DNA from: Tribonema minus
Taxonomy: Eukaryota; Sar; Xanthophyceae; Tribonematales; Tribonemataceae
Assembly (NCBI GenBank): GCA_017506865.1
Contig: JAFCMP010000188.1
Span: 32,054 to 96,053 of the forward strand
Reading direction: 5' to 3'
Length of the DNA stretch: 64,000 nucleotides
Under the pieces are notes generated by a model that did no database searches, was not told the origin of the DNA, and saw only the letters and a program-made list of their open reading frames with translations. Each line of letters opens with the position of its first letter. The first letter of the stretch is position 1. Made by a program: the position numbers and the translations under genes. This document shows positions 3,382-64,000 of the stretch, in pieces.

Positions 3382-5841
3382 ATGGCTCTCCACTGGCTTA
3401 CCAGCCCTGCCTCACGTGGGGAGGGGTCACCTCTGAAACGCAAACGGGGACAGCGCAATCACGGGCTGAATACTGGCTTGTGGTGGTGGCAGGTCAAAGC
3501 TGCACGCCAATCTGACACACGCCACAGACGCCGCCATGGTGTTGGCCGTTGGGTACGCCTAGTGATACCGCCGCCGCCACCGATCCCGGGCCCGCCGCCG
3601 ATCCCGCGCCCGCCGCCGATCCCGGGCCCGCCGCCGATCCCGGGCCCGCCGCCGATCCCGGGCCCGCCGCCGATCCCGGGCCCGCCGCCGATCCCTGGCC
3701 CGCCCCCGATCCCGGGCCCGCCGCCGATCCCGGGCCCGCCGCCGATCCCGGGCCCGCCGCCGATCCCGGGCCCGCCGCCGATCCCGGGCCCGCCGCCGAT
3801 CCCTGGCCCGCCCCCGATCCCGGGCCCGCCGCCGATCCCGGGCCCGCCGCCGATCCCGGGCCCGCCGCCAATACCGGGCCCGCCGCCGATCTCGGGTCCG
3901 CCGCCGATTTCGGGCCTGCCGCCGATACCCGGGCCGCCACCAGCTCAGCTGATGGCCCAGAGCTCTAGAGTGCGGCCGATGCCAGAGGTGCCAGTGTGCA
4001 GTCAGGTTGCAGAGCTGTGCAGAAGCATGCGCAGACTACACTTGTCGTCAGCCGACCGGGACGAGCCTCAGGGCAGTGGCAGCCATGCGCACGTCAAGAA
4101 GCGCCGCCGCCATCCGACCAGTCCAGGTGCCATTAATCACAGGGGATGCTCACAGGCGAAGCGCCCGCGGCATCAGCCTGCCAGTGACTCGGAGTCTCAA
4201 GCGGCGAGTTTACGGGAGGCACTGCCGCCAACAGCGATAATTGTACTGAGCTTGGTGGTACTACCGCCACCAGCGGCAAGTACACGCCGTCGGGCGACAC
4301 TGCCACCGGATTCACCAGCAGCGACAACGCCAATGCCAAAACGTTCGCGGCGGAAAGCGCCTTTAGTGACGGCAACAGCGGCGGGGCCCGCACCGGCCAA
4401 CCCGGTGGTTGCACAGCCACGGACGACTGTCACAGCCGCCGCTGCATGCGGTCGCAAGGTTACCTCCGACCTAACGGCGGCGGCAACGCCACGTGCGGCA
4501 GACATGGTGCCAAAACCGCCGGCAGCCGCTGCCGCATCAGATGGCCAACGCGGGACAGCTGCATCCCGGCGCAGTCGGCGCCGCGGCGCCAGCGCCGGGC
4601 CCCAAAGCATTGGCAGCATCAACTGCCCAGAGTCGCCGTCTGGCAAACTGAGTGCGCTGGCAAAGGCGGTCACCATGACCGTGCCCGTACCGATGGAGAT
4701 TGGCGAACCTACCAGTGGGCCAGCGCCGCGTCACCAGAGACGGATCACGTCGCGGCCTTCGCAGCCAGCTAGCAGCGGCGCCTCTCCCCAGTGGCACCCC
4801 GGTCCTCGGCCGATGGAGGTCACCGCAGCGGCAACCCCATGTGCAGCAGACATGGTGACAACAGCACCAGCGGCCGCTGCTGCACCGGGCGGCGAACGTG
4901 GGGCGGTTGCACCCCCGAGCCGGCGGGGTCGGCGCCGCGCCAGCGCCCAAAGCACTGGCAGCTTCACCCGTCCAGCGCCGCAGTCTGGCGGTGCGCTGGC
5001 AAAGCCGGTCACCGTGACCATCATGCCTGTACCGATGGAAGTTGGCGAACCTGGGCCGGCGGGTCACCAGAGACGGATCACGTCCCGGTCTTTGCAGCCA
5101 GCAGGCAGCGGCGTCTCTCTGTCAGGCGGCAGCGTCACCTCTGACGGTAACAGTCGCAACGGGCACCCAATATCCGGCATCACCGCTATGACAGTTTTGG
5201 CGCCCGCCAAGAAAGACGCTGCCAACCGGAAGGTCAATATCCCAGGGCTGGACTGCCGCATGTGCGACAAGTTCATAGTGCAAGCAAATCCTCGGGCCCC
5301 GGGAAAGAATTGCCCAGCGGCACACGCATGTGCGCACCAACGCACGCGCCACACAGGAAAGGGGAAGCAATTTGCAGAACTGCATGTTCAGCTTTTCCTA
5401 GACCACCGACCAATATGCGGCGGCCTGGAGCAGGTCTGCGATGGGTGCGGCAACCTCTTAATCAGACGTACAGCAGTAAGCACCACGGCCCCATCTGGTG
5501 ATCTAGGGGCCCTGGACCAGTGCGACCTGTGGCGCTGCGCCGACTGCCTTGCAGGGCCGGTCGCCGCGACAGCATGCACACCGTCAGGCAGTGACCGTGC
5601 ATCAGGCCATGATCACATTGCTGACATACACACCCGACCAACGACATGCGCGGCGGCAGCGGGTGACGCAGCTGTTGGTGGGGGGAATAGCCTGAAGCCA
5701 ACAGCCGCGCTGCTCGCCGCCGCTAGCAAATGTGGTCCCATACGCAAAATCCTCGGATGCGAGCACCTGGGGGTAGACCCCAGGCAAGCCCATGCATCTA
5801 CGTTGGACGGTGTGGCAGTTGCGCCGCTGCCGAGACTGTGA
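3382..5841 (+). CDS. LINE1 ORF1: polyproline repeat and zinc-finger protein
   Basis: The open frame begins upstream, but the first ATG is at 3382, giving about 819 residues. After a basic N terminus come about 20 copies of PPPIPG (3570-3940), then a long low-complexity Ala/Pro/Arg region with two similar blocks, each carrying an MEIGEP or MEVGEP motif followed by QRRITSR (near 4,690 and 5,040). The C-terminal third is Cys/His-rich: CRMCDKF with a trailing CAHQRTRH (near 5,250-5,350) and CDGCGNL with CADCLAG (near 5,435-5,555). This fits an RNA-binding ORF1-type protein. In the right arm the frame continues through this stop region into ORF2, so the stop at 5839 is probably a left-arm lesion (four bases fewer here, one base fewer near 5,981) and the ancestral product may have been one fused protein. 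Confidence 0.7.
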   Translation: MALHWLTSPASRGEGSPLKRKRGQRNHGLNTGLWWWQVKAARQSDTRHRRRHGVGRWVRLVIPPPPPIPGPPPIPRPPPIPGPPPIPGPPPIPGPPPIPGPPPIPGPPPIPGPPPIPGPPPIPGPPPIPGPPPIPGPPPIPGPPPIPGPPPIPGPPPIPGPPPIPGPPPISGPPPISGLPPIPGPPPAQLMAQSSRVRPMPEVPVCSQVAELCRSMRRLHLSSADRDEPQGSGSHAHVKKRRRHPTSPGAINHRGCSQAKRPRHQPASDSESQAASLREALPPTAIIVLSLVVLPPPAASTRRRATLPPDSPAATTPMPKRSRRKAPLVTATAAGPAPANPVVAQPRTTVTAAAACGRKVTSDLTAAATPRAADMVPKPPAAAAASDGQRGTAASRRSRRRGASAGPQSIGSINCPESPSGKLSALAKAVTMTVPVPMEIGEPTSGPAPRHQRRITSRPSQPASSGASPQWHPGPRPMEVTAAATPCAADMVTTAPAAAAAPGGERGAVAPPSRRGRRRASAQSTGSFTRPAPQSGGALAKPVTVTIMPVPMEVGEPGPAGHQRRITSRSLQPAGSGVSLSGGSVTSDGNSRNGHPISGITAMTVLAPAKKDAANRKVNIPGLDCRMCDKFIVQANPRAPGKNCPAAHACAHQRTRHTGKGKQFAELHVQLFLDHRPICGGLEQVCDGCGNLLIRRTAVSTTAPSGDLGALDQCDLWRCADCLAGPVAATACTPSGSDRASGHDHIADIHTRPTTCAAAAGDAAVGGGNSLKPTAALLAAASKCGPIRKILGCEHLGVDPRQAHASTLDGVAVAPLPRL
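3570..3942 (+). repeat. 18-bp GC-rich minisatellite coding for (PPPIPG)n
   Basis: About 20 tandem copies of CCGCCGCCGATCCCGGGC, with a 36-bp-scale variant (CCTGGCCCGCCC) recurring at regular spacing, which suggests growth by duplication of multi-unit blocks. The unit is a multiple of three, so all copies stay in frame. Degenerate copies at the 3' end (ATACCGGGC, ATCTCGGGT) mark the older edge. Confidence 0.95.
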
Positions 5842-5974
5842 GCAGCACAATGGGTGTGCTGCCCGGCGAAAGTCGTGCTAGCGATAGCGGCGCAACGATG
5901 TCAAGCAACGATCGTGTGCCCAGCACACCAGGCAGTACAGCAGCTGCTGTCGCAGCGGGCGCTCAGTCTAGCGA

Positions 5975-8900
5975 ATGCCCCAAGACCCGACGGGATCTCA
6001 CTGGCAAGGCTTGCTGGGGGCGGCTGGCGCACTCGCGCGCAGGGTACGTGCACTGGCCCTTGCCCCCAATCGGGCACGCGTCGCGGTGCTTGGCGCGTGG
6101 CCGACGGGTACCAAGCTTGGACCCCGCCGCACGTCACGCCGACTGCATATGCGGCCGGCGGCTAGCGACGCGCCAGCAACACAGACCCTGCTGGGCCGGA
6201 CTCCCTGCGCACCGCTGGTGAATCAGATGCATGACCTGACGGTCACGTTCAGCTTGCTCTCCCTCCGAGAAGAGGGTAACGACCTGGCAGCGGTTTTTGA
6301 CCAACTCTCGCTTAGGGAACCGGTCGTTGCCAGGTCGCCTCGCCAGCCAGCCGGGAAACGTGGTGAGTCAGACGCAACGCAGGCTGGTGATAACAGCACC
6401 CACGCAACAATGACCGAGACAGCAGCTGTCACGGCTATGGTTGTCAGTGGGAAGCGCAGTCGACGCAGAGGTAAGCACAAACGGCGGACGCAGGAGCGAC
6501 AGGCCGAGTGCGACAATTCTCCTGCACCCTCGGCACCAGCCACCACACCGCCGAGGGGCGGTGCCTCTGCCCCTTCAGCACGAATATCCGGGCCGGCGAA
6601 GGTCACCACCGTGACGGTGGCGACCCGGATACCCTCAACCGTGTGCCATACAGTCACCGTGGAGGCGCAGCAAGACGCGCTGGCAAAAGCCACCAACTAT
6701 GGTTTTTCCACTTGGCACACGGGCCTGCAAGCACTCCACAACCAGGCGCTTGGGGAACACACAGCGACGCTAGCACGTGGTGGGGAGCTTCGCCCCGTGA
6801 GCAATGTGGGCAACGGCAACTGCTTGATTCATACAGCTCTACACGGCATAGGCAGTGTCGCAGTTGAGCAAGGACTGCCGGCCCCAGCGCTGGTGATTGC
6901 CATGCGAGAGGCACTGCTGGACGGGATGGTGGCATACGTCACGCAGGGGGCGGGCAAACAAGGGGCCAGCATGTCATCGATGCGTCAACTGACCGCGCAT
7001 GCCGCAGCCCAACCTGCGTGTACACGTGAGCAATTCGACACGTACGGGACACGCGCTCGCTGCCTCGCAATCGAGTACGGCACAAATGAAACGGCTAGTG
7101 AGGACAGCGGGCACACGCTCCTGCAGCAACGCCTGCAGGAAGAGGGCGTGTGGGGACGGCCCCTCGGTTTGTCTGTGTGGGCCATTGTTGCAGCGGTCTA
7201 CGCGGTCTCGGTGACGGTGTGGCAGGCCAAGCCTCAGGCCACTGGCAGCACGCAAAAATCAACAGGGCTGGTGCTGGCACAACTGATGGGGCTGCCAGCG
7301 GTATTCGCACCGGCGACTCCAGCTCAGCCTGACTGCCATCTGGATGTGCTGTGGACGCCGCCTGGGCTATACACAAATGTGGGACACTTTGAACTGCTTG
7401 TCGCCCCTGCGGCAGCTCCGCCCTTGCCAACCACTGTGACAGCGTCGGCGACCACTCAAGCTGACAGCACCCACATCACGGCTCCGAGTCGGACACAGCC
7501 CCGTACGGCGCTGCAGTTGCCACAGCAGCCTGAGCCACTGAGGTGTCCACTATGCACACTGGCATTTTGGCAGCTTGGTCAGAAAGAGGACAGCAAACAG
7601 CGAGGCAAACTGTCAGCTGCGAGCCGCATGGCACCGGTAGTGGCCCACTTCAACGGTGGTAGCTGCACGAGGTCGATGCTGAACCCTGAGGCGAGCACAT
7701 CACACTGTCAGCGAAATCCGGCGGCAGCATACGCCAAGGGCATCCGGCAGCAGGTTGACCACGACCCATCCGGTGACCGTGCCCCTTCAGGCAGTAGTAC
7801 CTGCAGCACCGGGGCACACCATGCCAAGCGTGTGCAAGAGATGAGCACCATGTATGGTTGCACGGCAGAAGACTTCCTACGGGCGGTAAGGAAGCTGAGT
7901 GCATGCACAGGTGCCTGCGGTCTGGTCCATATGTCAGCCAGCGCGGGGCAGAGGCAATGCGCGCTGACCTCGCCGTGCCACACGTGTCGATGGAATGGCA
8001 GCGCCCCCACGCGCGCACGCCCGGCAGTACCCCCGGGCCAGTCCGAGGGCGGGGGTGCGGGTAGCGACGGTGCGGCCGCGGCGGCGGGGGCTGCAGCAAC
8101 GGCAGCTCCAAAGCCACCGGCGGTGCCGGCTAGTGGCGCCGCCAACTCAAAGTCCAGCAAGAAACGCCCGACGGCCACGGCAACCGGCGCGCAACGCCGG
8201 CGCCGAACGGCAGCTGCTGCCGCAGCGGCACCGCCTGGCAGTGCCGGCAGCCGCACTCAGTCTGACAGCCTTAGGCTGCAGGACAGCAGCCCCCCCCACG
8301 GGACGGCCGTGGGATGGGTGGACATGGATTTGGACCCGCCGGACGACGCCGCGTCACCGCCCCCCCCGACCACCACCACCAGTGGCAGGCCCTCAAAGCC
8401 CCAGGCACGAGCATCCCTGGCTTGGGACCTCTCGACGCCCTCGGTCGTCCACGCACTTGACCAGACCGATGAGGCGGATCTACTGCTGCGGCGGTTCACC
8501 ACGACTGCCAACCCCTTCCGCACTCAGCTGCAATGCACTCAGTGGGCACGGCTAGTGGAGCACGCTACACGACTACTGGCGGACGCCACAGACAGTGCAC
8601 GTGAAGCGGCACGGGTGCGCCTCCATCATGGTGCTGGGGCGTTTGCTCATCAGGTTTCTCAGACTCTAGTGCAGCGCGGCCACAGGCTGCTGCACCTGCT
8701 AGCAGCAATGGCCTTTGGTAGGCAACCGGAGGGAACCGGTACGCCGCCTGCGGCCCGGCTGGCAGCGTTGCTGTCTGGCGACTTCGCGGAGCTACTGAGA
8801 AAGACGCTGTCAGCAGCAGCGACGCTGCGGGCCCCCAAAACAAACAACGCAGCTACGGCGTCGGCACAAACGAACTTCGATGCCGACTGGACGGAGGCTG

Positions 8901-11900
8901 ACTCCAGGCAGCAAACAGCGTGCGCTGCCCTCTCAGGCAAGCGACGGGGGGTAGGCCTGGCCGCCGCACGACTAGAGGCGCGTGAAGCATGCGCCCCAAG
9001 AGATGAGGTCACTGCACACTGTCAGGTGCTGGCAGCAAAGCACCCTGAAACTGGCACCCGGCCGGGGGTAGTCGATACGCCAATGGAGCAAGTGCGCGGC
9101 CTGGTACGCGACGCCCGGCGGCACTGCTTGCACAGCGCAGGGGTGGCAGCGACCGCCAGGCCCGCTGGCAGCGGCAGTCCTGTCTTCGAATCGGGCCAGG
9201 CGCATGATCACAGCGATAGGCCTGAGGAATCCGATGCTGCCAGTGCAGCCGGACGGCGCCTCGAGGTGGAGGCAACAGACATACTGTCGACCTTGTCCGC
9301 AGCAGGGGCGGGAAAGGCAGGAGGGCTGGACGGCCTACGCTATGAACACCTCTTGATGGCCGCTGGGCCTGGTGCACCAGTGAAAGCAGCTACCCGCCCC
9401 GTGGACAGTGCCTCGCCAGGACTAGCTGGTGATTCAGAATCAGATGTGATGGAACCAGCTTTCGCCCATCACCTGGCCAAGGTGTTCACGACGCTGCTTG
9501 TTGAGCCTGAACTGCTGCCGGAGCAATCGCAACGGCTTCTCCGCGCCGCGGCCCTCTCAGGCATAGGACAGAAGCGGCGTCCGATCGCCTGCTCCAGTGT
9601 CTGGCGCAGACTCCTCGGGTCCACAGCGGCACGGAGCGTCAAGGGCAAGATATCGGGGCTGCTGGCCTCCATGTCGCAGTTTGGCGTAGGATATCGGTCT
9701 GGCGTCGAGCATGTGGCAGCGCGCGCGCGCGTGTGGCACGAGCTGTATGGCACCACAATCCAGCTGGACTGTGAGAACGCATTTAACAGTGTGGATCGCG
9801 CCGCCATTGTGCGGGGGCTTATGCTCTTCTGTCCGGAGCTGCTCCCGCACTTTGAGTCCGTATACTGTGGTGACACTGCCCCAGAGATGCGAGTGGAGGT
9901 GAACGGTGAAGCTCGCATTATCTGCTCCCACCTAGGGTGCCAGCAAGGGGACCCTCTAGGGCCGCTATACTTTGCAGTGGCAGCGGCCTTCCTACCCTTC
10001 TACCCTGATGGAGTGAATGCGACGCCCGGCAGTATGCCGGCCTATGGCCACGGCACAGCGGAACCGCCAGCCCCGCACTGCGCTTTCCTGGATGACCTCA
10101 ACGTGCTGCAAGCTGCCTATTTCGACGATGCAGCGGCCGCTGGGCTGGCAGAGGTGATCCGCCGGCTGGCGGCAGGGGGCTTACGCGTTCGACCAGACAA
10201 GTCGCTGGCCATCGCCATGCGCGACACAGTGTTTGATGAAGCGGCCAGAGCACGCCTGCGCGCCCTTGACATACCGTTTGTGGACGCCACCATGCCAGAG
10301 GCCAGTCAGGGCTTTACATCGGTCGGGGTACCGGTAGGGCACCCAGCCTATGTGCATGCTGCCATGAGCAAGCATCTTGTTGACGCAGGGACATGGCGAT
10401 TGTCGTGGCAGCTGGCTGGAATGGCGCGGCATCACCTGCAGGCAGCACAGTTCATTCTGCGCAGGTCACTGACGAAGCGCAGGGGCTTCTTAGCTCGGGT
10501 CGTTGACATGGCTTTGAGTGAGACATGGTTGCACGCGTTTGACGGGTTCTGTGCATGGACGCTCGAACGCATGCTGCACCTGCACGGCTGCGCTACCGCG
10601 GCAGCCATGAAGTCACACCTGCTGGCCGCCTGCACTGCTGGTGACAATGAAGAAGCCAGCAGTGGCAGCGTGCTGGTATTGCCGCGCTTGGGCCCGCCAG
10701 AACTCACGGACATCGCAGTGCCACTGCGGGCGTCACGGTTGCCGGAGCGACGAGGCGGTCTGGGCATGCCGCTTTTGGGGCTACTGGCACCAGCCGCATA
10801 CACGGCCCAGGCATGCACAACACTGCGGCCAGCAATAATTCATGCCACTGTGGCAGCAGGGGCCCTGAGGCTCGGCACTGACGAACACGGCGCAGTCACC
10901 TGGTTCGCGCAGCACTCATGCGCAATACGCGAGGACCAGGGACTGCCGCCAATCATCGAGGCCGTGCGACGCTCTACACGAGCGCTGACAGCTGATGGCG
11001 GCGAAAAATCACGCGCAGCTGTGGCCGAGCAGCTCCCAGCATCGTTGCTACGGTGGGCAGCAGATACGACGGCCGCAGCGTCGACGCTCCCCACTGCGGT
11101 GCAGGCGATCTACGCCGCAACTGCCGTCACGGAGACGGAGACCACTGAGCCAGCCCCACACACCCACGCCATTGTGCCTGGCGCCGAGGCGGCCGCTGCG
11201 GCGGCGACCGTACCTGGCCCTCAAGCCGCTGCTGCAGCTGCCTCTTCCACGCCCGCTAAAACACAAACTAGCGCGGAAGAAAGCAACTGCAGCGGCGGGC
11301 AGGAGGACGACGACGACGACTGGGAGGCCTATGCTGACGAGATCTGCAGGAAGGTAGTGCCCCGCCGCCGGCGCGGTCACTTCACACACGGACTACAGGC
11401 CGGCCTTTCAAATGTTCTTCGACGTCAATACGAGGATTGCCTGGTGAAGGACCTAGAGGCTGCCTCGGCTGGTGCCGAGGGCAAGCCGACGCAGGCTGCA
11501 CCTATTGGTGACTCACGCGACACCAGCCGCCGCCGCCAACAGGCTAGCGCGCGGGTCCTGGCGCAGCTGCGCAGCCAGCGTGCGTCCGGGGCAATGTCGT
11601 GGATGAGCGTGCCACCCACTGCCAATGACCGCCCGGGTGCGGCGCCCATGTCCAGTATGGCAGCAGCCACGATGATTTTGGTTGCGATCTTCATAGACGG
11701 GTGGGGCATACAGGGCGAGGTGTGCCCATGGCGGTGCAGTGACGTGAGCCCCACCTCCACGCATGCGATCAGCTGCCCCAGCCAGCACATACGGGGGCAC
11801 AACGCGACACACACTGCCCAAAAGCGGTGCCTGCAGCGCATCTTGAGACAGCACCATGTCTCTATTGTCCGCAATGAGGACGCTAGCGTCTTCAAGGTAC

Positions 11901-12397
11901 CGGGGTATCGGGCGGACACAGTCATTGACCCAGGGTGTCTGCACTTTAGCAGTGCATACCGTAACAAGGGAATAGTGCTAGACACAAGTGTGCGCGCGCC
12001 CACAGCGAGCTCGTACCTGACAGGCAAAACAAATGCCTCGAACACGGACGGCTATGCTGCTGGGGTGGGGGAGGACGCGAAGGTCAAGCACCACACCGGC
12101 ACCTTGACGTCATCTTGGGCTTTTGTGCCATTCGTGCAGGAGTCGTACGGACGGCTGGGCAAGCAGACAAGCCTTTTTGTTAAGGAGTTGGCAATGCATT
12201 CAGCACTGTGCTCAGGGGGGGGGAAGGCAGATGTGTTACGCAAGGCCGGGTTAGCTAAGCGTCAGATCCTCATTGAGCTGAGCATGTCGCTGGCGCGGGA
12301 GTTGGCGGAGCGCGTCATGGCGTACACACGCGGAGCGCGAATGCTGGGCTGTGTTGCAGCGCCGGTATCCAAGCTCCTAGGACACAGCGCAGACTAG
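5975..12397 (+). CDS. LINE1 ORF2: OTU protease, reverse transcriptase, RLE nuclease
   Basis: 2,140 codons, uninterrupted. An OTU-like cysteine protease lies near residues 275-475: NVGNGNCLIHTAL with the putative nucleophile Cys, and VGHFELL with the putative His. A CPLC...H...C finger follows near 522. Reverse transcriptase motifs: KRRPIACSSVWRR (~1197), LDCENAFNSVDR (~1261), GCQQGDPLGPL (~1321) and the catalytic FLDD (~1370). The C terminus has a Cys/His cluster (CPWRC...C...H, ~1918-1945), then YRADTVIDPG (~1977) and GIVLDTSV (~2000), the acidic motifs of a restriction-like endonuclease, and a final WAFVPFVQESYG segment. No apurinic-type endonuclease is seen. The protein would reverse-transcribe element RNA at a nicked target; the OTU role is unknown. 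The start Met is the first in the open frame and may be a break point of a longer ORF1-ORF2 fusion. Confidence 0.92.
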   Translation: MPQDPTGSHWQGLLGAAGALARRVRALALAPNRARVAVLGAWPTGTKLGPRRTSRRLHMRPAASDAPATQTLLGRTPCAPLVNQMHDLTVTFSLLSLREEGNDLAAVFDQLSLREPVVARSPRQPAGKRGESDATQAGDNSTHATMTETAAVTAMVVSGKRSRRRGKHKRRTQERQAECDNSPAPSAPATTPPRGGASAPSARISGPAKVTTVTVATRIPSTVCHTVTVEAQQDALAKATNYGFSTWHTGLQALHNQALGEHTATLARGGELRPVSNVGNGNCLIHTALHGIGSVAVEQGLPAPALVIAMREALLDGMVAYVTQGAGKQGASMSSMRQLTAHAAAQPACTREQFDTYGTRARCLAIEYGTNETASEDSGHTLLQQRLQEEGVWGRPLGLSVWAIVAAVYAVSVTVWQAKPQATGSTQKSTGLVLAQLMGLPAVFAPATPAQPDCHLDVLWTPPGLYTNVGHFELLVAPAAAPPLPTTVTASATTQADSTHITAPSRTQPRTALQLPQQPEPLRCPLCTLAFWQLGQKEDSKQRGKLSAASRMAPVVAHFNGGSCTRSMLNPEASTSHCQRNPAAAYAKGIRQQVDHDPSGDRAPSGSSTCSTGAHHAKRVQEMSTMYGCTAEDFLRAVRKLSACTGACGLVHMSASAGQRQCALTSPCHTCRWNGSAPTRARPAVPPGQSEGGGAGSDGAAAAAGAAATAAPKPPAVPASGAANSKSSKKRPTATATGAQRRRRTAAAAAAAPPGSAGSRTQSDSLRLQDSSPPHGTAVGWVDMDLDPPDDAASPPPPTTTTSGRPSKPQARASLAWDLSTPSVVHALDQTDEADLLLRRFTTTANPFRTQLQCTQWARLVEHATRLLADATDSAREAARVRLHHGAGAFAHQVSQTLVQRGHRLLHLLAAMAFGRQPEGTGTPPAARLAALLSGDFAELLRKTLSAAATLRAPKTNNAATASAQTNFDADWTEADSRQQTACAALSGKRRGVGLAAARLEAREACAPRDEVTAHCQVLAAKHPETGTRPGVVDTPMEQVRGLVRDARRHCLHSAGVAATARPAGSGSPVFESGQAHDHSDRPEESDAASAAGRRLEVEATDILSTLSAAGAGKAGGLDGLRYEHLLMAAGPGAPVKAATRPVDSASPGLAGDSESDVMEPAFAHHLAKVFTTLLVEPELLPEQSQRLLRAAALSGIGQKRRPIACSSVWRRLLGSTAARSVKGKISGLLASMSQFGVGYRSGVEHVAARARVWHELYGTTIQLDCENAFNSVDRAAIVRGLMLFCPELLPHFESVYCGDTAPEMRVEVNGEARIICSHLGCQQGDPLGPLYFAVAAAFLPFYPDGVNATPGSMPAYGHGTAEPPAPHCAFLDDLNVLQAAYFDDAAAAGLAEVIRRLAAGGLRVRPDKSLAIAMRDTVFDEAARARLRALDIPFVDATMPEASQGFTSVGVPVGHPAYVHAAMSKHLVDAGTWRLSWQLAGMARHHLQAAQFILRRSLTKRRGFLARVVDMALSETWLHAFDGFCAWTLERMLHLHGCATAAAMKSHLLAACTAGDNEEASSGSVLVLPRLGPPELTDIAVPLRASRLPERRGGLGMPLLGLLAPAAYTAQACTTLRPAIIHATVAAGALRLGTDEHGAVTWFAQHSCAIREDQGLPPIIEAVRRSTRALTADGGEKSRAAVAEQLPASLLRWAADTTAAASTLPTAVQAIYAATAVTETETTEPAPHTHAIVPGAEAAAAAATVPGPQAAAAAASSTPAKTQTSAEESNCSGGQEDDDDDWEAYADEICRKVVPRRRRGHFTHGLQAGLSNVLRRQYEDCLVKDLEAASAGAEGKPTQAAPIGDSRDTSRRRQQASARVLAQLRSQRASGAMSWMSVPPTANDRPGAAPMSSMAAATMILVAIFIDGWGIQGEVCPWRCSDVSPTSTHAISCPSQHIRGHNATHTAQKRCLQRILRQHHVSIVRNEDASVFKVPGYRADTVIDPGCLHFSSAYRNKGIVLDTSVRAPTASSYLTGKTNASNTDGYAAGVGEDAKVKHHTGTLTSSWAFVPFVQESYGRLGKQTSLFVKELAMHSALCSGGGKADVLRKAGLAKRQILIELSMSLARELAERVMAYTRGARMLGCVAAPVSKLLGHSAD

Positions 12398-12484
12398 GCT
12401 GCTGTGTTGACGCAAGCTTTTCGATAATCATTGCATAGGCAACCCGGCCTCCCTTGGGCCGTTATAAATACAAGTCCATACGTA

Positions 12485-13008
12485 ATCACAGGCAACAGCT
12501 GCTGCACCTCTGTGTGCTCTCATGCACAGATGAAAAGCTTGCTCGTTGTACGTTAGTTAGCCAAACTGAGGTACTGTCTGCATCTGGGCTCTCCACAGAT
12601 GCGTTCTTCAGCGTAGCAAGTTTGTGCTGAGTGCAGCCAACCACCCAGTATGACCAGCTATGCAGGCCTCAACCTCACCATCTCGTGGGCCAGTGCATTT
12701 CAGGGCGTACTGCTCGTCCTTATCACAGATCTGTTGCCACAAACACAGGAAGCGGAGTGAAGAGTAAGGGCATGAGCACTTGGGCGAAGAATAACATGCG
12801 CTCCTTAGGCCACTTGTGCAGCCACAAGCAGACATCAGGCTAAGAACGAGGAGTTGGTATATACTGGCACATGACCTTTTCCACACAGCTGCAGCGTGGC
12901 CGCTACTGGCTGAGCTTCTACAAGTAGCACTTGAGGACTGGCTGTATAAGTGCAAAAGTCGTTGAATCACTTTTGCCACAGCAGTTTATCTGTAAGTAAC
13001 ACCAAAAG
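12485..13008. other. Region between LINE1 and the 213-bp repeat, left arm
   Basis: On the minus strand 12608-12979 is open for 123 codons and Cys-rich in its second half (ACGCTSGLRSAC, ICDKDEQYALKC), with a possible donor after PRD. A second frame over the same bases (CLWLHKWPKERMLFFAQ) looks equally protein-like, so coding status is undecided. It could be a late exon of the acidic-repeat gene whose exons end at 14633. The right-arm counterpart is 56120-56491. Confidence 0.3.
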
Positions 13009-13648
13009 ACATGAACCCAAGCTCAAATGGGTGATGCATTGGTTGTTACAGCATTCACAACCCAACGCTGAGGGTGAGGGGGACCTGATATCTATAAGAT
13101 ATAACACTGCTATACACTCATAAAGTTAGCATGCAGCTTCAACAAACAGCACACACATAGCGCATCCACCACGAAGCAGCAACAGCGCGGCAGCAGCCAT
13201 GTATCTGATATGACTAGAAGGACATGAACCCAAGCTCAAATGGGTGATGCATTGGTTGTTACAGCATTCACAACCCAACGCTGAGGGTGAGGGGGACCTG
13301 ATATCTATAAGATATAACACTGCTATACACTCATAAAAATTGCATGCAGCTTCAACAAACAACACACACATAGCGCATCCACCACGAAGCAGCAACAGCG
13401 CGGCAGCAGCCATGTATCTGATATGACTAGAAGGACATGAACCCAAGCTCAAATGGGTGATGCATTGGTTGTTACAGCATTCACAACCCAACGCTGAGGG
13501 TGAGGGGGACCTGATATCTATAAGATATATCACTGCTATACACTCATAAAAATTGCATGCAGCTTCAACAAACAACACACACATAGCGCATCCACCACGA
13601 AGCAGCAACAGCGCGGCAGCAGCCATGTATCTGACATGACTAGAAGGA
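13009..13648 (-). repeat. 213-bp tandem repeat, about three copies (left arm)
   Basis: Copies start near 13011, 13224 and 13437, with a spacing of exactly 213 bp and very few differences. Each contains ATGGGTGATGCATTGG and the small palindromic ATATCTATAAGATAT. The period equals 71 codons, so one minus-strand frame stays open across all copies (13126-13626) and would encode repeated Cys-rich 71-residue blocks. No start or splice context shows that it is translated. Confidence 0.93.
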
Positions 13649-13946
13649 CGTACTATGATGCTGTTTGACAGAACAACAAGCCCTGTGTCCGGCCGCAGCT
13701 AAGGTGCTTTACCCATTATTGCTGTGGAAACATAGAAGTACCAAGGCTCTCGTTTTCTCTTGCACAAGAGCCGCGGCGGCCCATCAGAGATGGCTGGGAA
13801 AACTGACCCTCCCCGCACTCCACCGGAGCATACACACACCACACACAACGTCGCAAGCACATGGTACGTTGACACTATGGAGAGTCATGACGACACCCTG
13901 CACTGTATGCCGTCTGCTCGCGAATTACGCTGCCGCTGTTCAGTTG

Positions 13947-14395
13947 CAATTGTATGACTCAAAAGTACTCATTGAGTCTTCCGGTTGATAGATCAGATTA
14001 GACACAGTGCGCACACGTCGTCCGCTCGCGAACTACGCAGCCGCTGTTCAGTTGCGATTGTGTGACTCGAAAGTGCTCGTTGAGTCTTCCGGTTGATAGA
14101 CCAGATTATACACAGTGCGCACACGTCGTCCGCGTGTGCGACTTGAAAGTGTTTGAAGGTGCTCATAGAGTCTTCAGTTGCGTCCGCTCGCGAACTACGC
14201 AGCCGCTGTTCAGTTGCGATTGTGTGACTCGAAAGTGCTCGTTGAGTCTTCCGGTTGGTAGACCAGATTATACACGGTGCGCACACGTCGTCCGCTTGTG
14301 CGACGTGAAAGTGTTTGAAGGTGCTCATAGAGTCTTCCGTTGATAGACACAATCATACACAGTACGCACACGTCGTCCGCTGGGATGTGCCTGCA
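13947..14395 (+). repeat. Nested 108/163-bp tandem repeat (left arm)
   Basis: Units carrying GTGCTCGTTGAGTCTTCCGG, ACACAGTGCGCACACGTCGT and CCGCTCGCGAACTACGCAG recur at 13955, 14063 and 14226, spaced 108 and 163 bp. The longer unit has an extra internal piece (GTGTTTGAAGGTGCTCATAG) that is itself repeated at the 3' end. Sequence differs by a few bases per copy. Probably intronic or intergenic; no coding role seen. Confidence 0.85.
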
Positions 14396-14632
14396 TCAGT
14401 GCAAAGTGGGGAAAAGCCTTCCCACTACATCGACACGTTGTGCGATTTGACTAAATTTGCTACTTGTGAGAAACAGGGGGTAAACCGTACCCACTTTGCC
14501 CTACCTCAAGACCTTGCTAATTCAAAAGAATCAATGACCACCAGATAATTACCATTCCTAGCTGAAGGCGTTTTCTTCTGCAGGAGCACTCTGATAAGGC
14601 TGCATTTACTCTGCAGATGGCTGCAAACTCAC

Positions 14633-17206: not shown

Positions 17207-17609
17207 CTGCATGGGAGATACAACATTGGGTGTGAATGCAAGCATATGGGTAACGTGATTGAACTTACTTTGGAAGCTTTTTTTGCGCCATAATGCGCTT
17301 GTAGCGGCAGTGGCATACCTTGCGCTGACCCTGCACACAGTTCTATAGCCAAGCGGTATGGACAGTGTCACATGCAGAGACGAGCTGAGAATTGAGTGCC
17401 CCCATCACCTGTACATGTGAACATGCCAGAGAAAATCGGGTGTAACACTCCCCAACTCCCCAATTTCATCACACAGGGGTTACCAATTTGCGCTGTGCGA
17501 CCTAACACTGGAGCCACATGACATATTAACAGGGGTGCGAGGCTGCATATATCAGTGCGCCGCAGCGACATTAACACCGGGTATAACAATCCTGCTGCTG
17601 TACACTAAA

Positions 17610-17925
17610 CCCAGTATTGCTGACGGTATTTGGTGGTCGCCGCTGGTAAATGTGCAGCCTGCGCAAGCGATGAGCTAGCAAGGTATGAAGCCAATACGTG
17701 TTCGTAATTGAGTGCCAGTGGCAGCTGGCGACGTTGCAGCAGATCAGGGCGGGTGCTGCTGGCTCAGTCGAGTGCCGCCTTGCCTGGCACTTCACTTTGT
17801 CTATTCCATTTGTCATGAGTGGCGGTCCCCGATGGTGAACGCACAGCTTGTGCAAGCGATGAGCTGGTAGCTTGTGAAGCCTGCATGTGTCTGTAACTTG
17901 CAGGGCAGCTGGCGGCGTCGCAGCT
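17610..17925 (+). repeat. Diverged direct repeat, 190-bp period (left arm)
   Basis: Two diverged copies share the AGCTCATCGCTTGC, GTCGCCAGCTGCC and GGCGACCACC-like blocks at a spacing of about 190 bp. The counterpart is 51173-51488. It lies just outside the hAT element and has no evident coding function. Confidence 0.55.
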
Positions 17926-18088
17926 TCAAGTCAGGTGCCACTCACTCAGCTGAGCGCTTGAGCGGCACAACACCTCAACCCTGCAAGCTGTCATGACATA
18001 TGTGTTCTGGATCTGGAGGAGCGCTGCTGTCTGTTGCCAACCCCAAGCCCTCATCCTGCCTTGCTCATCTCGGCTGGTGGTGTATGCG

Positions 18089-19851: not shown

Positions 19852-20155
19852 TGTTTGCGCGCGCTGCGTCGTCGAAGTTAGGGTTAGGATTAGGAGTACA
19901 ACTAGCACAGGTCAGGGTCAGAACAGGACTGCGCCTAGCCTTAGAGTTTTCAATATCATACAAAGGGGTAGAATCAGGATTTGCCGTGCGCTGATGTCGC
20001 CAGCTCTGCACGCAATCAGCGAATCTTAAACCGACGGTACCAATTAGTCATTTCTAGCGAGTTGACGCCTGCGCAGGTTGCATGCTCTCAGTAACAGTCT
20101 AACTGTTGTGTGCACCAAACGTGACAGTTCCGTCTGTCAGAGCGAAGTAGTCAGG

Positions 20156-20359
20156 ATGGCTGATGCCGAGCCCGCGTCTGCAATAAAAACAAAGTACCAC
20201 GCAGCTGCGCACTCGATGTGCAAGGGCGTCCCAGGTGACCGTGAAGAATGCAGCGGATGCTCAGGCTGTAAACAAGAGCCATTACCATGGACTTTAAGGT
20301 TTTCGTATTGTACTCACACTTTGCTGAAGATTTGTCACCCTGACGATGGTGTCATTTGA
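20156..20359 (+). CDS. Small Cys-containing hypothetical ORF, 67 aa (left arm)
   Basis: ATG at 20156 opens MADAEPASAIKTKYHAAAHS with a CSGCSGC cluster further on. The frame is preserved in the other arm. There is no recognised family. The second half may be an intron read-through rather than coding, since a possible boundary lies after the CSGCSGC cluster. Weak candidate. Confidence 0.25.
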   Translation: MADAEPASAIKTKYHAAAHSMCKGVPGDREECSGCSGCKQEPLPWTLRFSYCTHTLLKICHPDDGVI

Positions 20360-23411: not shown

Positions 23412-23424
23412 GTGGTTTCGGTTT

Positions 23425-42935: not shown

Positions 42936-42948
42936 GGAGTGTGCATAT

Positions 42949-45859: not shown

Positions 45860-46485
45860 CGACAGCTCCGCGTCAAACCCGGTGGCTCTCTGCCACTATC
45901 TCGGCAAGCAACATCGGCATGATCCCTACTCGACGACAGCACGTGTATGTGAGGATAACTAGCACGGACTCACCTCTCCTAGCGCCGCATGGCTCGCTCC
46001 TCAAAACGCCATGTTCCTCCTCTGATCTTTGGTGCTCGTCTCCACGGCAGTTTTCTGCTTCAAACGCTAGCCGGTGGCTCCATGATCGCACGCTAAATGC
46101 CGGCGGCTCCTAACACAGTCAACGACGGCCTGACTGCTCGCGGGAGAACATCGCAGCAGCAACTCTCATCGTCTCCTAGAAAAAAGGCACAACTTCACTT
46201 AAATTTTCGCGCACATGGGACTCTCGTGGTAGCCCATGCATGCTGTGTTTTATGCACAGGCCACACATACGCACGCGTGCAGCAGGTTGTCGGACCCTGT
46301 CAGCATCAGGCGATGCGATGCGCGCCGATGTCCACGCACCGTCATAATGTTACTGCCTGCTGGCGGAGGATCGCACGCGCTGCTTTGCTATTTTCCCCAA
46401 CCTCCAGACGACGAATGGGCCAGCGCTGCACGTCGCTGTGGACTGCTCACACTCATCTCTGCAACCCGCGCGACACAGAAGAATC

Positions 46486-55152: not shown

Positions 55153-55450
55153 CAACTGAACAGCGGCAGCGTAATTCGCGAGCAGACGGCATACAGTGCA
55201 GGGTGTCGTCATGACTCTCCATAGTGTCAACGTACCATGTGCTTGCGACGTTGTGTGTGGTGTGTGTATGCTCCGGTGGAGTGCGGGGAGGGTCAGTTTT
55301 CCCAGCCATCTCTGATGGGCCGCCGCGGCTCTTGTGCAAGAGAAAACGAGAGCCTTGGTACTTCTATGTTTCCACAGCAATAATGGGTAAAGCACCTTAG
55401 CTGCGGCCGGACACAGGGCTTGTTGTTCTGTCAAACAGCATCATAGTACG

Positions 55451-56090
55451 TCCTTCTAGTCATGTCAGATACATGGCTGCTGCCGCGCTGTTGCTGCTTC
55501 GTGGTGGATGCGCTATGTGTGTGTTGTTTGTTGAAGCTGCATGCAATTTTTATGAGTGTATAGCAGTGATATATCTTATAGATATCAGGTCCCCCTCACC
55601 CTCAGCGTTGGGTTGTGAATGCTGTAACAACCAATGCATCACCCATTTGAGCTTGGGTTCATGTCCTTCTAGTCATATCAGATACATGGCTGCTGCCGCG
55701 CTGTTGCTGCTTCGTGGTGGATGCGCTATGTGTGTGTTGTTTGTTGAAGCTGCATGCAATTTTTATGAGTGTATAGCAGTGTTATATCTTATAGATATCA
55801 GGTCCCCCTCACCCTCAGCGTTGGGTTGTGAATGCTGTAACAACCAATGCATCACCCATTTGAGCTTGGGTTCATGTCCTTCTAGTCATATCAGATACAT
55901 GGCTGCTGCCGCGCTGTTGCTGCTTCGTGGTGGATGCGCTATGTGTGTGCTGTTTGTTGAAGCTGCATGCTAACTTTATGAGTGTATAGCAGTGTTATAT
56001 CTTATAGATATCAGGTCCCCCTCACCCTCAGCGTTGGGTTGTGAATGCTGTAACAACCAATGCATCACCCATTTGAGCTTGGGTTCATGT
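55451..56090 (+). repeat. 213-bp tandem repeat, about three copies (right arm)
   Basis: Counterpart of 13009-13648. The 71-codon frame is open on the plus strand at 55473-55973. Copy number and nearly all bases match the left arm. Confidence 0.93.
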
Positions 56091-56119
56091 CTTTTGGTGT
56101 TACTTACAGATAAACTGCT

Positions 56120-56614: not shown

Positions 56615-59600
56615 TACGTATGGACTTGTATTTATAACGGCCCAAGGGAGGCCGGGTTGCCTATGCAATGATTATCGAAAAGCTTGCGTCAACACAGCAG
56701 CCTAGTCTGCGCTGTGTCCTAGGAGCTTGGATACCGGCGCTGCAACACAGCCCAGCATTCGCGCTCCGCGTGTGTACGCCATGACGCGCTCCGCCAACTC
56801 CCGCGCCAGCGACATGCTCAGCTCAATGAGGATCTGACGCTTAGCTAACCCGGCCTTGCGTAACACATCTGCCTTCCCCCCCCCTGAGCACAGTGCTGAA
56901 TGCATTGCCAACTCCTTAACAAAAAGGCTTGTCTGCTTGCCCAGCCGTCCGTACGACTCCTGCACGAATGGCACAAAAGCCCAAGATGACGTCAAGGTGC
57001 CGGTGTGGTGCTTGACCTTCGCGTCCTCCCCCACCCCAGCAGCATAGCCGTCCGTGTTCGAGGCATTTGTTTTGCCTGTCAGGTACGAGCTCGCTGTGGG
57101 CGCGCGCACACTTGTGTCTAGCACTATTCCCTTGTTACGGTATGCACTGCTAAAGTGCAGACACCCTGGGTCAATGACTGTGTCCGCCCGATACCCCGGT
57201 ACCTTGAAGACGCTAGCGTCCTCATTGCGGACAATAGAGACATGGTGCTGTCTCAAGATGCGCTGCAGGCACCGCTTTTGGGCAGTGTGTGTCGCGTTGT
57301 GCCCCCGTATGTGCTGGCTGGGGCAGCTGATCGCATGCGTGGAGGTGGGGCTCACGTCACTGCACCGCCATGGGCACACCTCGCCCTGTATGCCCCACCC
57401 GTCTATGAAGATCGCAACCAAAATCATCGTGGCTGCTGCCATACTGGACATGGGCGCCGCACCCGGGCGGTCATTGGCAGTGGGTGGCACGCTCATCCAC
57501 GACATTGCCCCGGACGCACGCTGGCTGCGCAGCTGCGCCAGGACCCGCGCGCTAGCCTGTTGGCGGCGGCGGCTGGTGTCGCGTGAGTCACCAATAGGTG
57601 CAGCCTGCGTCAGCTTGCCCTCGGCACCAGCCGAGGCAGCCTCCAGGTCCTTCACCAGGCAATCCTCGTATTGGCGTCGAAGAACATTTGAAAGGCCGGC
57701 CTGTAGTCCGTGTGTGAAGTGACCGCGCCGGCGGCGGGGCACTACCTTCCTGCAGATCTCGTCAGCATAGGCCTCCCAGTCGTCGTCGTCGTCCTCCTGC
57801 CCGCCGCTGCAGTTGCTTTCTTCCGCGCTTGTTTGTGTTTTAGCGGGCGTGGAAGAGGCAGCTGCAGCAGCGGCTTGAGGGCCAGGTACGGTCGCCGCCG
57901 CAGCGGCCGCCTCGGCGCCAGGCGCAATGGCGTGGGTGTGTGGGGCTGGCTCAGTGGTCTCCGTCTCCGTGACGGCAGTTGCGGCGTAGATCGCCTGCAC
58001 CGCAGTGGGGAGCGTCGACGCTGCGGCCGTCGTATCTGCTGCCCACCGTAGCAACGATGCTGGGAGCTGCTCGGCCACAGCTGCGCGTGATTTTTCGCCG
58101 CCATCAGCTGTCAGCGCTCGTGTAGAGCGTCGCACGGCCTCGATGATTGGCGGCAGTCCCTGGTCCTCGCGAATTGCGCATGAGTGCTGCGCGAACCAGG
58201 TGACTGCGCCGTGTTCGTCAGTACCGAGCCTCAGGGCCCCTGCTGCCACAGTTGCATGAATTATTGCTGGCCGCAGTGTTGTGCATGCCTGGGCCGTGTA
58301 TGCGGCTGGTGCCAGTAGCCCCAAAAGCGGCATGCCCAGACCGCCTCGTCGCTCCGGCAACCGTGATGCCCGCAGCGGCACTGCGATGTCCGTGAGTTCT
58401 GGCGGGCCCAAGCGCGGCAATACCAGCACGCTGCCACTGCTGGCTTCTTCATTGTCACCAGCAGTGCAGGCGGCCAGCAGGTGTGACTTCATGGCTGCCG
58501 CGGAAGCGCAGCCGTGCAGGTGCAGCATGCGTTCGAGCGTCCATGCACAGAACCCGTCAAACGCGTGCAACCATGTCTCACTCAAAGCCGTGTCAACGAC
58601 CCGAGCTAAGAAGCCCATGCGCTTCGTCAGTGACCTGCGCAGAATGAACTGTGCTGCCTGTAGGTGATGCCGCGCCATTCCAGCCAGCTGCCACGACAAT
58701 CGCCACGTCCCTGCGTCAACAAGATGCTTGCTCATGGCAGCATGCACATAGGCTGGGTGCCCTACCGGTACCCCGACCGATGTAAAGCCCTGACTGGACT
58801 CTGGCATGGTGGCGTCCACAAACGGTATGTCAAGGGCGCGCAGGCGTGCTCTGGCCGCTTCATCAAACACTGTGCCGCGCATGGCGATGGCCAGCGACTT
58901 GTCTGGTCGAACGCGTAAGCCCCCTGCCGCCAGCCGGCGGATCACCTCTGCCACCCCAGCGGCTGCTGCATCGTCGAAATAGGCAGCTTGCAGCACGTTG
59001 AGGTCATCTAGGAAAGCGCAGTGCGGGGCTGGCGGTTCCGCTGTGCTGTGGCCGTAGGCCGGCATACTGCCGGGCGTCGCATTCACTCCATCAGGGTAGA
59101 AGAGTAGGAAGGCCGCTGCCACTGCAAAGTATAGCGGCCCTAGAGGGTCCCCTTGCTGGCACCCTAGGTGGGAGCAGATAATGCGAGCTTCGCCGTTCAC
59201 CTCCACTCGCATCTCTGGGGCAGTGTCACCACAGTATACGGACTCAAAGTGCGGGAGCAGCTCTGGACAGAAGAGCATAAGCCCCCGCACAATGGCGGCG
59301 CGATCCACACTGTTAAATGCGTTCTCACAGTCCAGCTGGATTGTGGTGCCATACAGCTCGTGCCACACGCGCGCGCGCGCTGCCACATGCTCGACGCCAG
59401 ACCGATATCCTACGCCAAACTGCGACATGGAGGCCAGCAGCCCCGATATCTTGCCCTTGACGCTCCGTGCCGCTGTGGACCCGAGGAGTCTGCGCCAGAC
59501 ACTGGAGCAGGCGATCGGACGCCGCTTCTGTCCTATGCCTGAGAGGGCCGCGGCGCGGAGAAGCCGTTGCGATTGCTCCGGCAGCAGTTCAGGCTCAACA

Positions 59601-62600
59601 AGCAGCGTCGTGAACACCTTGGCCAGGTGATGGGCGAAAGCCGGTTCCATCACATCTGATTCTGAATCACCAGCTAGTCCTGGCGAGGCACTGTCCACGG
59701 GGCGGGTAGCTGCTTTCACTGGTGCACCAGGCCCAGCGGCCATCAAGAGGTGTTCATAGCGTAGGCCGTCCAGCCCTCCTGCCTTTCCCGCCCCTGCTGC
59801 GGACAAGGTCGACAGTATGTCTGTTGCCTCCACCTCGAGGCGCCGTCCGGCTGCGCTGGCAGCATCGGATTCCTCAGGCCTATCGCTGTGATCATGCGCC
59901 TGGCCCGATTCGAAGACAGGACTGCCGCTGCCAGCGGGCCTGGCGGTCGCTGCCACCCCTGCGCTGTGCAAGCAGTGCCGCCGGGCGTCGCGTACCAGGC
60001 CGCGCACTTGCTCCATTGGCGTATCGACTACCCCGGCCGGGTGCCAGTTTCAGGGTGCTTTGCTGCCAGCACCTGTGCAGTGACCTCGTCTCTTGGGGCG
60101 CATGCTTCACGCGCCTCTAGTCGTGCGGCGGCCAGGCCTACCCCCCGTCGCTTGCCTGAGAGGGCAGCGCACGCTGTTTGCTGCCTGGAGTCAGCCTCCG
60201 TCCAGTCGGCATCGAAGTTCGTTTGTGCCGACGCCGTAGCTGCGTTGTTTGTTTTGGGGGCCCGCAGCGTCGCTGCTGCTGACAGCGTCTTTCTCAGTAG
60301 CTCCGCGAAGTCGCCAGACAGCAACGCTGCCAGCCGGGCCGCAGGCGGCGTACCGGTTCCCTCCGGTTGCCTACCAAAGGCCATTGCTGCTAGCAGGTGC
60401 AGCAGCCTGTAGCCGCGCTGCACTAGAGTCTGAGAAACCTGATGAGCAAACGCCCCGGCACCATGATGGAGGCGCACCCGTGCCGCTTCACGTGCACTGT
60501 CTGTGGCGTCCGCCAGTAGTCGTGTAGCGTGCTCCACTAGCCGTGCCCACTGAGTGCATTGCAGCTGAGTGCGGAAGGGGTTGGCAGTCGTGGTGAACCG
60601 CAGCAGCAGTAGATCCGCCTCATCGGTCTGGTCAAGTGCGTGGACGACCGAGGGCGTCGAGAGGTCCCAAGCCAGGGATGCTCGTGCCTGGGGCTTTGAG
60701 GGCCTGCCACTGGTGGTGGTGGTCGGGGGGGGCGGTGACGCGGCGTCGTCCGGCGGGTCCAAATCCATGTCCGCCCATCCCACGGCCGTCCCGTGGGGGG
60801 GGCTGCTGTCCTGCAGCCTAAGGCTGTCAGACTGAGTGCGGCTGCCGGCACTGCCAGGCGGTGCCGCTGCGGCAGCAGCTGCCGTTCGGCGCCGGCGTTG
60901 CGCGCCGGTTGCCGTGGCCGCCGGGCGTTTCTTGCTGGACTTTGAGTTGGCGGCGCCACTAGCCGGCACCGCCGGTGGCTTTGGAGCTGCCGTTGCTGCA
61001 GCCCCCGCCGCCGCGGCCGCACCGTCGCTACCCGCACCCCCGCCCTCGGACTGGCCCGGGGGTACTGCCGGGCGTGCGCGCGTGGGGGCGCTGCCATTCC
61101 ATCGACACGTGTGGCACGGCGAGGTCAGCGCGCATTGCCTCTGCCCCGCGCTGGCTGACATATGGACCAGACCGCAGGCACCTGTGCATGCACTCAGCTT
61201 CCTTACCGCCCGTAGGAAGTCTTCTGCCGTGCAACCATACATGGTGCTCATCTCTTGCACACGCTTGGCATGGTGTGCCCCGGTGCTGCAGGTACTACTG
61301 CCTGAAGGGGCACGGTCACCGGATGGGTCGTGGTCAACCTGCTGCCGGATGCCCTTGGCGTATGCTGCCGCCGGATTTCGCTGACAGTGTGATGTGCTTG
61401 CCTCAGGGTTCAGCATCGACCTCGTGCAGCTACCACCGTTGAAGTGGGCCACTACCGGTGCCATGCGGCTCGCAGCTGACAGTTTGCCTCGCTGTTTGCT
61501 GTCCTCTTTCTGACCAAGCTGCCAAAATGCCAGTGTGCATAGTGGACACCTCAGTGGCTCAGGCTGCTGTGGCAACTGCAGCGCCGTACGGGGCTGTGTC
61601 CGACTCGGAGCCGTGATGTGGGTGCTGTCAGCTTGAGTGGTCGCCGACGCTGTCACAGTGGTTGGCAAGGGCGGAGCTGCCGCAGGGGCGACAAGCAGTT
61701 CAAAGTGTGTCCCACATTTGTGTATAGCCCAGGCGGCGTCCACAGCACATCCAGATGGCAGTCAGGCTGAGCTGGAGTCGCCGGTGCGAATACCGCTGGC
61801 AGCCCCATCAGTTGTGCCAGCACCAGCCCTGTTGATTTTTGCGTGCTGCCAGTGGCCTGAGGCTTGGCCTGCCACACCGTCACCGAGACCGCGTAGACCG
61901 CTGCAACAATGGCCCACACAGACAAACCGAGGGGCCGTCCCCACACGCCCTCTTCCTGCAGGCGTTGCTGCAGGAGCGTGTGCCCGCTGTCCTCACTAGC
62001 CGTTTCATTTGTGCCGTACTCGATTGCGAGGCAGCGAGCGCGTGTCCCGTACGTGTCGAATTGCTCACGTGTACACGCAGGTTGGGCTGCGGCATGCGCG
62101 GTCAGTTGACGCATCGATGACATGCTGGCCCCTTGTTTGCCCGCCCCCTGCGTGACGTATGCCACCATCCCGTCCAGCAGTGCCTCTCGCATGGCAATCA
62201 CCAGCGCTGGGGCCGGCAGTCCTTGCTCAACTGCGACACTGCCTATGCCGTGTAGAGCTGTATGAATCAAGCAGTTGCCGTTGCCCACATTGCTCACGGG
62301 GCGAAGCTCCCCACCACGTGCTAGCGTCGCTGTGTGTTCCCCAAGCGCCTGGTTGTGGAGTGCTTGCAGGCCCGTGTGCCAAGTGGAAAAACCATAGTTG
62401 GTGGCTTTTGCCAGCGCGTCTTGCTGCGCCTCCACGGTGACTGTATGGCACACGGTTGAGGGTATCCGGGTCGCCACCGTCACGGTGGTGACCTTCGCCG
62501 GCCCGGATATTCGTGCTGAAGGGGCAGAGGCACCGCCCCTCGGCGGTGTGGTGGCTGGTGCCGAGGGTGCAGGAGAATTGTCGCACTCGGCCTGTCGCTC

Positions 62601-64000
62601 CTGCGTCCGCCGTTTGTGCTTACCTCTGCGTCGACTGCGCTTCCCACTGACAACCATAGCCGTGACAGCTGCTGTCTCGGTCATTGTTGCGTGGGTGCTG
62701 TTATCACCAGCCTGCGTTGCGTCTGACTCACCACGTTTCCCGGCTGGCTGGCGAGGCGACCTGGCAACGACCGGTTCCCTAAGCGAGAGTTGGTCAAAAC
62801 CGCTGCCAGGTCGTTACCCTCTTCTCGGAGGGAGAGCAAGCTGAACGTGACCGTCAGGTCATGCATCTGATTCACCAGCGGTGCGCAGGGAGTCCGGCCC
62901 AGCAGGGTCTGTGTTGCTGGCGCGTCGCTAGCCGCCGGCCGCATATGCACTCGGCGTGACGTGCGGCGGGGTCCAAGCTTGGTACCCGTCGGCCACGCGC
63001 CAAGCACCGCGACGCGTGCCCGATTGGGGGCAAGGGCCAGTGCACGTACCCTGCGCGCGAGTGCGCCAGCCGCCCCCAGCAAGCCTTGCCAGTGAGATCC
63101 CGTCGGGTCCCTGGGGCATTCGCTAGACTGAGCGCCCGCTGCGACAGCAGCTGCTGTACTGCCTGGTGTGCTGGGCACACGATCGTTGCTTGACATCGTT
63201 GCGCCGCTATCGCTAGCACGACTTTCGCCGGGCAGCACACCCATTGTGCTGCTCCGGGTCAGTCTCGGCAGCGGCGCAACTGCCACACCGTCCAACGTAG
63301 ATGCATGGGCTTGCCTGGGGTCTACCCCCAGGTGCTCGCATCCGAGGATTTTGCGTATGGGACCACATTTGCTAGCGGCGGCGAGCAGCGCGGCTGTTGG
63401 CTTCAGGCTATTCCCCCCACCAACAGCTGCGTCACCCGCTGCCGCCGCGCATGTCGTTGGTCGGGTGTGTATGTCAGCAATGTGATCATGGCCTGATGCA
63501 CGGTCACTGCCTGACGGTGTGCATGCTGTCGCGGCGACCGGCCCTGCAAGGCAGTCGGCGCAGCGCCACAGGTCGCACTGGTCCAGGGCCCCTAGATCAC
63601 CAGATGGGGCCGTGGTGCTTACTGCTGTACGTCTGATTAAGAGGTTGCCGCACCCATCGCAGACCTGCTCCAGGCGGCCGCCGCATATTGGTCGGTGGTC
63701 TAGGAAAAGCTGAACATGCAGTTCTGCAAATTGCTTCCCCTTTCTGTGTGGCGCGTGCGTTGGTGCGCACATGCGTGTGCCGCTGGGCAATTCTTTCCCG
63801 GGGCCCGAGGATTTGCTCGCACTATGAACTTGTCGCACATGCGGCAGTCCAGCCCTGGGATATTGACCTTCCGGTTGGCAGCGTCTTTCTTGGCGGGCGC
63901 CAAAACTGTCATAGCGGTGATGCCGGATATTGGGTGCCCGTTGCGACTGTTACCGTCAGAGGTGACGCTGCCGCCTGACAGAGAGACGCCGCTGCCTGCT
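56615..64000 (-). mobile_element. LINE1, right copy (runs off the window)
   Basis: Reverse complement of 5100-12484; the 3' end is at 56615 and the 5' part lies beyond 64000. Protein-level differences from the left copy are few (about ten substitutions over the last 1,104 residues), but several indels break the reading frame. It is the same insertion as the left copy, duplicated with the arm. Confidence 0.93.
56702..63912 (-). pseudogene. LINE1 coding region, frameshifted (right copy)
   Basis: The frame is split at four places compared with the left copy: near 63745 (one G fewer, in the Cys/His region of ORF1), near 62795 (four T instead of five), near 61712 (an extra AC, just at the OTU His block) and near 60030 (six bases and one G fewer, between the RT-upstream region and MEQVRG). 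The piece from 60016 to 56702 keeps the RT motifs (NAFNSVDR, QQGDPLGPL, FLDD) and the restriction-like nuclease intact. In contrast to the left copy, the ORF1 tail reads straight through into ORF2 (PLPRLTRSSTMGVLPG), which suggests the ancestral element coded for one long fused protein. Confidence 0.88.

Follow-up and report, generated by a model that had tools for sequence, protein, structure and literature searches.

How did two long, near-identical arms come to face each other, in inverted orientation, across a 9.9-kb spacer in this algal assembly (158.18 Mb, 554 contigs)? The stretch analysed here (the window) comprises 64,000 nucleotides of contig C188 (C188:32054-96053). Its features are collected in Table 1, and positions given without a contig prefix are those of the window.

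Geometry and content of the inverted arms

The near-identical inverted arms, the 9.9-kb spacer and the 6.9-kb insertion of the preliminary description were all recovered by self-BLAST: 5100-23431 pairs in inverted orientation with 64000-45665 (99.53% identity over 18,345 columns, 65 mismatches), and 30352-33067 pairs likewise with 45670-42949 (98.79% over 2,723 columns, 25 mismatches), a match far beyond chance that is interrupted by a left-only insertion of ~6.92 kb. The arms had been put at a minimum of 21 kb, or 28 kb when the inserted retrotransposon (LINE2) is counted; they are real, and their sizes can now be extended to ~23.4 kb of shared arm and to 30.4 kb for the left arm with its extra LINE. 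The end of C188 (96,053 bp) cuts the right arm off at 64000, and the suggestion that its true size is larger than the window allows holds in that a second contig, C207, carries homology as far as window position 2700. The outer ends, which the preliminary description proposed to look for in the flanking sequence, were thereby located: homology ends at window 2700 (C207:14551), and the flanks differ beyond.

Table 1. Features of the locus in window coordinates, with the substitution divergence between left and right arms where it was computed by block
Feature	Position	Strand	Left-right divergence	Remark
Left outer junction	2699-2700	.		LINE1 cut, joined to unrelated flank
Left arm	2700-33067	+		2700-5099 matched by C207 alone, 5100-33067 by the right arm
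LINE1 retrotransposon	2700-12484	+		truncated at 2700, before the 5' end of the family is reached
LINE1 block	5100-10299		0.42%	
LINE1 mixed stretch	10300-11700		1.14%	
LINE1 block	11701-12484		0/784	
Outer non-mobile block	12485-17629		0.23%	
Mobile element with nested second element	17630-21184 (nested 18089-19854)	.	0.14%	in both arms
Block left of LINE2	21185-23425		0.45%	non-mobile
LINE2	23426-30343	-		left arm only; flanked by GAAGTT
Block right of LINE2	30352-32100		1.43%	
Repeat-family segment	30970-33472	+		80-91% in matches >1 kb; unbroken through 33067; right arm copy cut at 42949
Block beside spacer	32101-33067		0/966	
Spacer	33068-42948	.		9,881 bp
259-bp spacer segment	33992-34250	+		98.8% copy at C207:14685-14943, past the right arm's outer end
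Right inner junction	42948-42949	.		repeat cut, joined to the spacer's right end
Right arm, inverted copy	42949-64000	-		to contig end; seems continued in C207 to C207:14551
LINE1, right-arm copy	56615-64000	-		C188:88668 to contig end

Segmental duplications are longer than 1 kb, more than 90% identical and include non-mobile DNA. Besides their identity in self-BLAST, the arms contain two non-mobile blocks, which were listed only in both arms, the outer one also in C207 (40 of 320 candidates scored; 3 of 3 scored). From its sequence, the locus is thus probably an inverted segmental duplication, set in repeat-rich surroundings in the nuclear genome of the alga. Most of the arm is mobile DNA, and the nested elements, which occur in both arms, are older than the duplication. 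A genome search listed a single full-length place for the spacer (40 of 91 candidates scored), which is weak evidence of uniqueness because such searches score some candidates only and miss known places (one omitted the right arm, another C188's own place); parts of the spacer have relatives on C510 (85-87%) and C511 (68-77%).

The host genes previously noted in the arms were not confirmed. Much of the sequence is mobile DNA, and outside the LINEs no Pfam match at cut-off was found in six frames of 12485-17300 (which gave two weak matches below cut-off), 33000-37900, 37800-42749 and 42700-47600, the region ~17300-21500 being scanned as single open reading frames (ORFs) only. A protein search with the spacer ORF at 33760-34281 returned 88 candidates, none at E <= 0.001. 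Rfam gave no match at gathering score, no tRNA genes were found, and the plant-type telomere repeat (exact 28 bases) had no match in the genome. Both arms also carry a three-copy 213-bp tandem repeat (13008-13649 and 55450-56091) with units 97-99% alike, at which C207 displays small length changes.

The outermost element of the arm, LINE1, has ORFs at 3052-5841 and 5972-12397, and many other copies of it, 91-97% identical, are found in the assembly. Its reverse-transcriptase match falls just under the Pfam cut-off (29.1 versus 29.6 bits), and one region of its second ORF (601 residues) yielded 13 protein matches at 38-46%, none of them named Tribonema. Within the first ORF, an 18-bp unit is repeated 20 times in frame (3574-3935), with a proline-rich reading by eye. 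The reverse transcriptase of LINE2 passes the same cut-off (35.1 versus 29.6 bits), and LINE2 was found at ~100% identity in at least 18 other places (19 of 945 candidates scored). Among the 53 protein matches to a region of its ORF product, three are named Tribonema minus (97, 94 and 61% over 47, 23 and 35% of the region) and two, at 30%, Closterium; the first three hint weakly at T. minus or a relative as the source. LINE2 is bounded on either side by GAAGTT, a short target duplication, and the right arm has an unoccupied site at ~45665-45670, which indicates that LINE2 arrived after the duplication.

Junctions and the probable continuation of the right arm

The two inner junctions differ in kind. 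The repeat at the inner end of the left arm continues through 33067 into the spacer in all four loci aligned (to 33472 in three, to 33406 in one), which marks the left inner junction as old. At the right inner junction, strict inverted microhomology amounts to 0 bp; GTGCAT is shared within 8 bp (by eye), and a 10-bp inverted match lies within 100 bp, a length reached by 22 of 2,000 shuffles. The adjoining right end of the spacer (42400-42903) resembles a sequence on C179 at 65%, and its frames look, by eye, like a broken methyltransferase gene, without Pfam support.

The first 12.2 kb of C207 (63,578 bp, read as far as position 20,000) overlap the right arm at 99.4%. Left arm, right arm and C207 were compared over 10,388 clean columns, two zones being left out (1,347 columns in the 3' part of LINE1 and 403 columns at the C207 contig end). 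Because 31 of the 34 substitutions in these columns are shared by the right arm and C207 against the left arm (two set C207 apart, one the right arm), C207 looks like the right arm's continuation rather than a third copy, even though the two are not identical. The 22 small indels of the three-way alignment, which are not part of the substitution count, comprise 12 seen in C207 only, five in the left arm only, four in the right arm only and one that is three-way. Sites at which one sequence alone differs number 21 for C207, 12 for the right arm and four for the left arm in the LINE1 stretch that was set aside (C188 42353-43700), and we read the differences between C207 and the right arm there as probable consensus mixing among the many LINE1 copies. 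The 403 columns at the contig end hold five C207-only sites.

On C207, LINE1 extends 92 bp past the point at which the left arm's copy is cut. The 60 bp beside the cut are closely similar in all six other copies fetched, with three differences from C207, and the remainder of the extension is common to four of five copies fetched. Since the left LINE1 is the shorter of the two, the left arm cannot be ancestral throughout, and a second event is needed. Beyond the LINE1 cut, C207 carries in order a 41-bp filler, for which a source was looked for and none found, the 259-bp spacer copy, eight bases, and a second repeat. The latter is taken to be broken because C207 lacks the 160 bp that precede the break in all three other copies fetched.

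Could LINE1 itself have produced these ends? Target duplications are readable by eye in two of six LINE1 copies (11 of 12 bases on C119, 13 bases on C104), the 3' windows of the other four stopping before the LINE end, and none resembling these was found at either outer LINE1 end of the locus. Simple insertion into either flank was therefore rejected, the four bases GTAA at the left edge being too few to count. Transduction of downstream DNA along with LINE1 through an RNA, first considered when the outer end was taken for the 5' terminus of the LINE, was likewise rejected, as the six other copies extend beyond 2700.

Divergence between the arms

The arms differ by 91 substitutions in 21,032 columns (65 transitions, 26 transversions). 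Over 12490-33067 without LINE2, these are clustered, with a variance-to-mean ratio of 3.0 in 500-bp bins that none of 5,000 random placements reached. An even rate would be expected from a single duplication without exchange; the uneven blocks (Table 1) thus fit patchy gene conversion, by which the arms probably exchanged tracts. Divergence is highest beside LINE2, as it should be where conversion is blocked by a large heterology. The pattern could also stem from uneven consensus polishing. The zero differences next to the spacer are at odds with a polishing effect due simply to anchoring.

Proposed origin of the duplication

In the assembly, a unit composed of LINE1, DNA not found elsewhere, the nested elements and the inner repeat stands twice, inverted, around the spacer. 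Our preferred explanation, drawn from the junctions as assembled and assigned a probability of about 0.6, is fold-back or template-switch repair, followed by insertion of LINE2 and probably by patchy gene conversion. On this view, DNA broken at the right-hand edge of the spacer would fold back, or a replication fork would change strands, and reverse copying of the left arm would run until the template ended at a break within LINE1. The short distance of 92 bp between the outer LINE1 cuts would be accounted for in this way. End joining that included a templated patch would then close both ends. LINE2 would later insert in the left arm, and gene conversion would probably move tracts between the two copies. 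Several features of a fold-back are indeed seen: the inverted copies enclose a spacer that is itself unduplicated among the candidates scored, the non-inverted copy runs unbroken into that spacer in the four loci aligned, and the right arm's far end is joined to another sequence, if C207 is its continuation. Against this explanation stand the lack of strict inverted microhomology at the right inner junction, the second event that the shorter left LINE1 calls for, the differences between C207 and the right arm, the filler for which no source was found, and the weak evidence that the spacer is unique. Of the readings previously offered, a recent inverted duplication is the best supported and continued conversion, given the clustered divergence, a plausible addition; the data speak against a mere fold-back artefact of reads.

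The main technical rival, though an unlikely one, is that two haplotypes (or two loci) of one stretch were wrongly joined at 42948/42949, for instance through chimeric reads. C188 ends within the right arm, C207 overlaps it unmerged, and the joined site is without strict microhomology. Furthermore, C263, C227 and C319 repeat parts of the left flank of C188 (9.8-27.8 kb) at ~99-100%; these contigs could be haplotypes or recent duplicates, and their presence implies that the assembly keeps redundant copies. The divergence between the arms is of the same order as that between C188 and C319 (99%). Nevertheless, the outer flanks of the arms differ, so that alleles would need another rearrangement, the spacer is listed only once at full length (with 40 of 91 candidates scored), and the copy of spacer sequence at the far end ties both ends to one history.

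The left flank of C188 has features of its own. Diverged tandem repeats (~80%) with offset steps of ~72 bp occupy C188:2566-4485, near the contig's left end. C263 (29,043 bp) contains ~4.7 kb of extra sequence, which starts with a LINE1-like piece at C188:11858. A 2.9-kb LINE1 piece, 98-99% like the LINE1 of the arms, lies at C188:27796-30692, and C319 departs from C188 within eight bases of its start, a proximity that reflects either a further rearrangement or contigs joined across a repeat.

In the main structural rival, a single ancestral unit would have been duplicated as the 9.9-kb spacer inverted, each arm keeping one old flank; staggered breaks, a pair of template switches or a subsequent exchange between arms could have brought this about. 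The left arm is complete at its inner end and C207 is longer at the outer end, just as a flip of the spacer predicts, but the outer C207 junction does not look old, as it lacks a LINE1 target duplication and adjoins a broken repeat. Moreover, the 65% match on C179 to the right end of the spacer does not run on into left-flank sequence, a weak test covering ~560 bases past the match. A search for the former adjacency of spacer end and left flank found nothing spanning the rejoined site. We regard such an inversion as quite improbable, and similarly doubtful is that the spacer serves as a natural switch flipped by crossing-over between the 23-kb arms, with both orientations present in culture; flipping would explain the left arm complete inside, the right arm longer outside and the patchy divergence. 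A single-molecule read turned back on itself would leave inverted copies in one contig ending inside the second copy, as here, but with little or no spacer and arms differing by read errors only, and is exceedingly improbable in view of the 9.9-kb spacer, the left-only LINE2, the excess of transitions (65 to 26) and the agreement of C207.

Fold-back or template-switch repair has counterparts elsewhere. In human fold-back inverted duplications (PMC3907307), spacers measure 766-70,466 bp (median 3,428) at 21 sequenced junctions, a range that takes in the algal spacer. Like the algal locus, the human cases have an unduplicated spacer, comparable in length, between inverted copies, the right copy starting abruptly and the far end being joined to foreign sequence, with inserted sequence and repeats at some junctions. 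Their arms, however, extend over megabases in the tabulated cases compared, versus ~23 kb here, and the algal copy differs in being without exact inverted microhomology and in not having been placed at a chromosome end. Break-induced inverted duplications of yeast (PMC10622511) resemble the algal case in fold-back priming and in stabilisation by a secondary rearrangement, but use natural inverted repeats near the break, whereas here there is only weak short homology. Drosophila inversions with duplicated ends (PMC7584159) share duplicates at the ends of the inverted segment and repair footprints with this locus, those duplicates being 59 and 534-540 bp long as opposed to ~23 kb flanking a 9.9-kb segment.

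The kind of rearrangement is thus already known, and the locus is a new instance, ordinary in kind and unusual in detail. It also serves as a warning that contigs in this assembly end inside near-identical copies. The left-only LINE2 lets one ask whether a large heterology shields adjacent sequence from arm-to-arm conversion. If reads bear out the junctions, the locus would provide, in a probably yellow-green alga, a junction-resolved inverted duplication made by break repair that included a templated patch.
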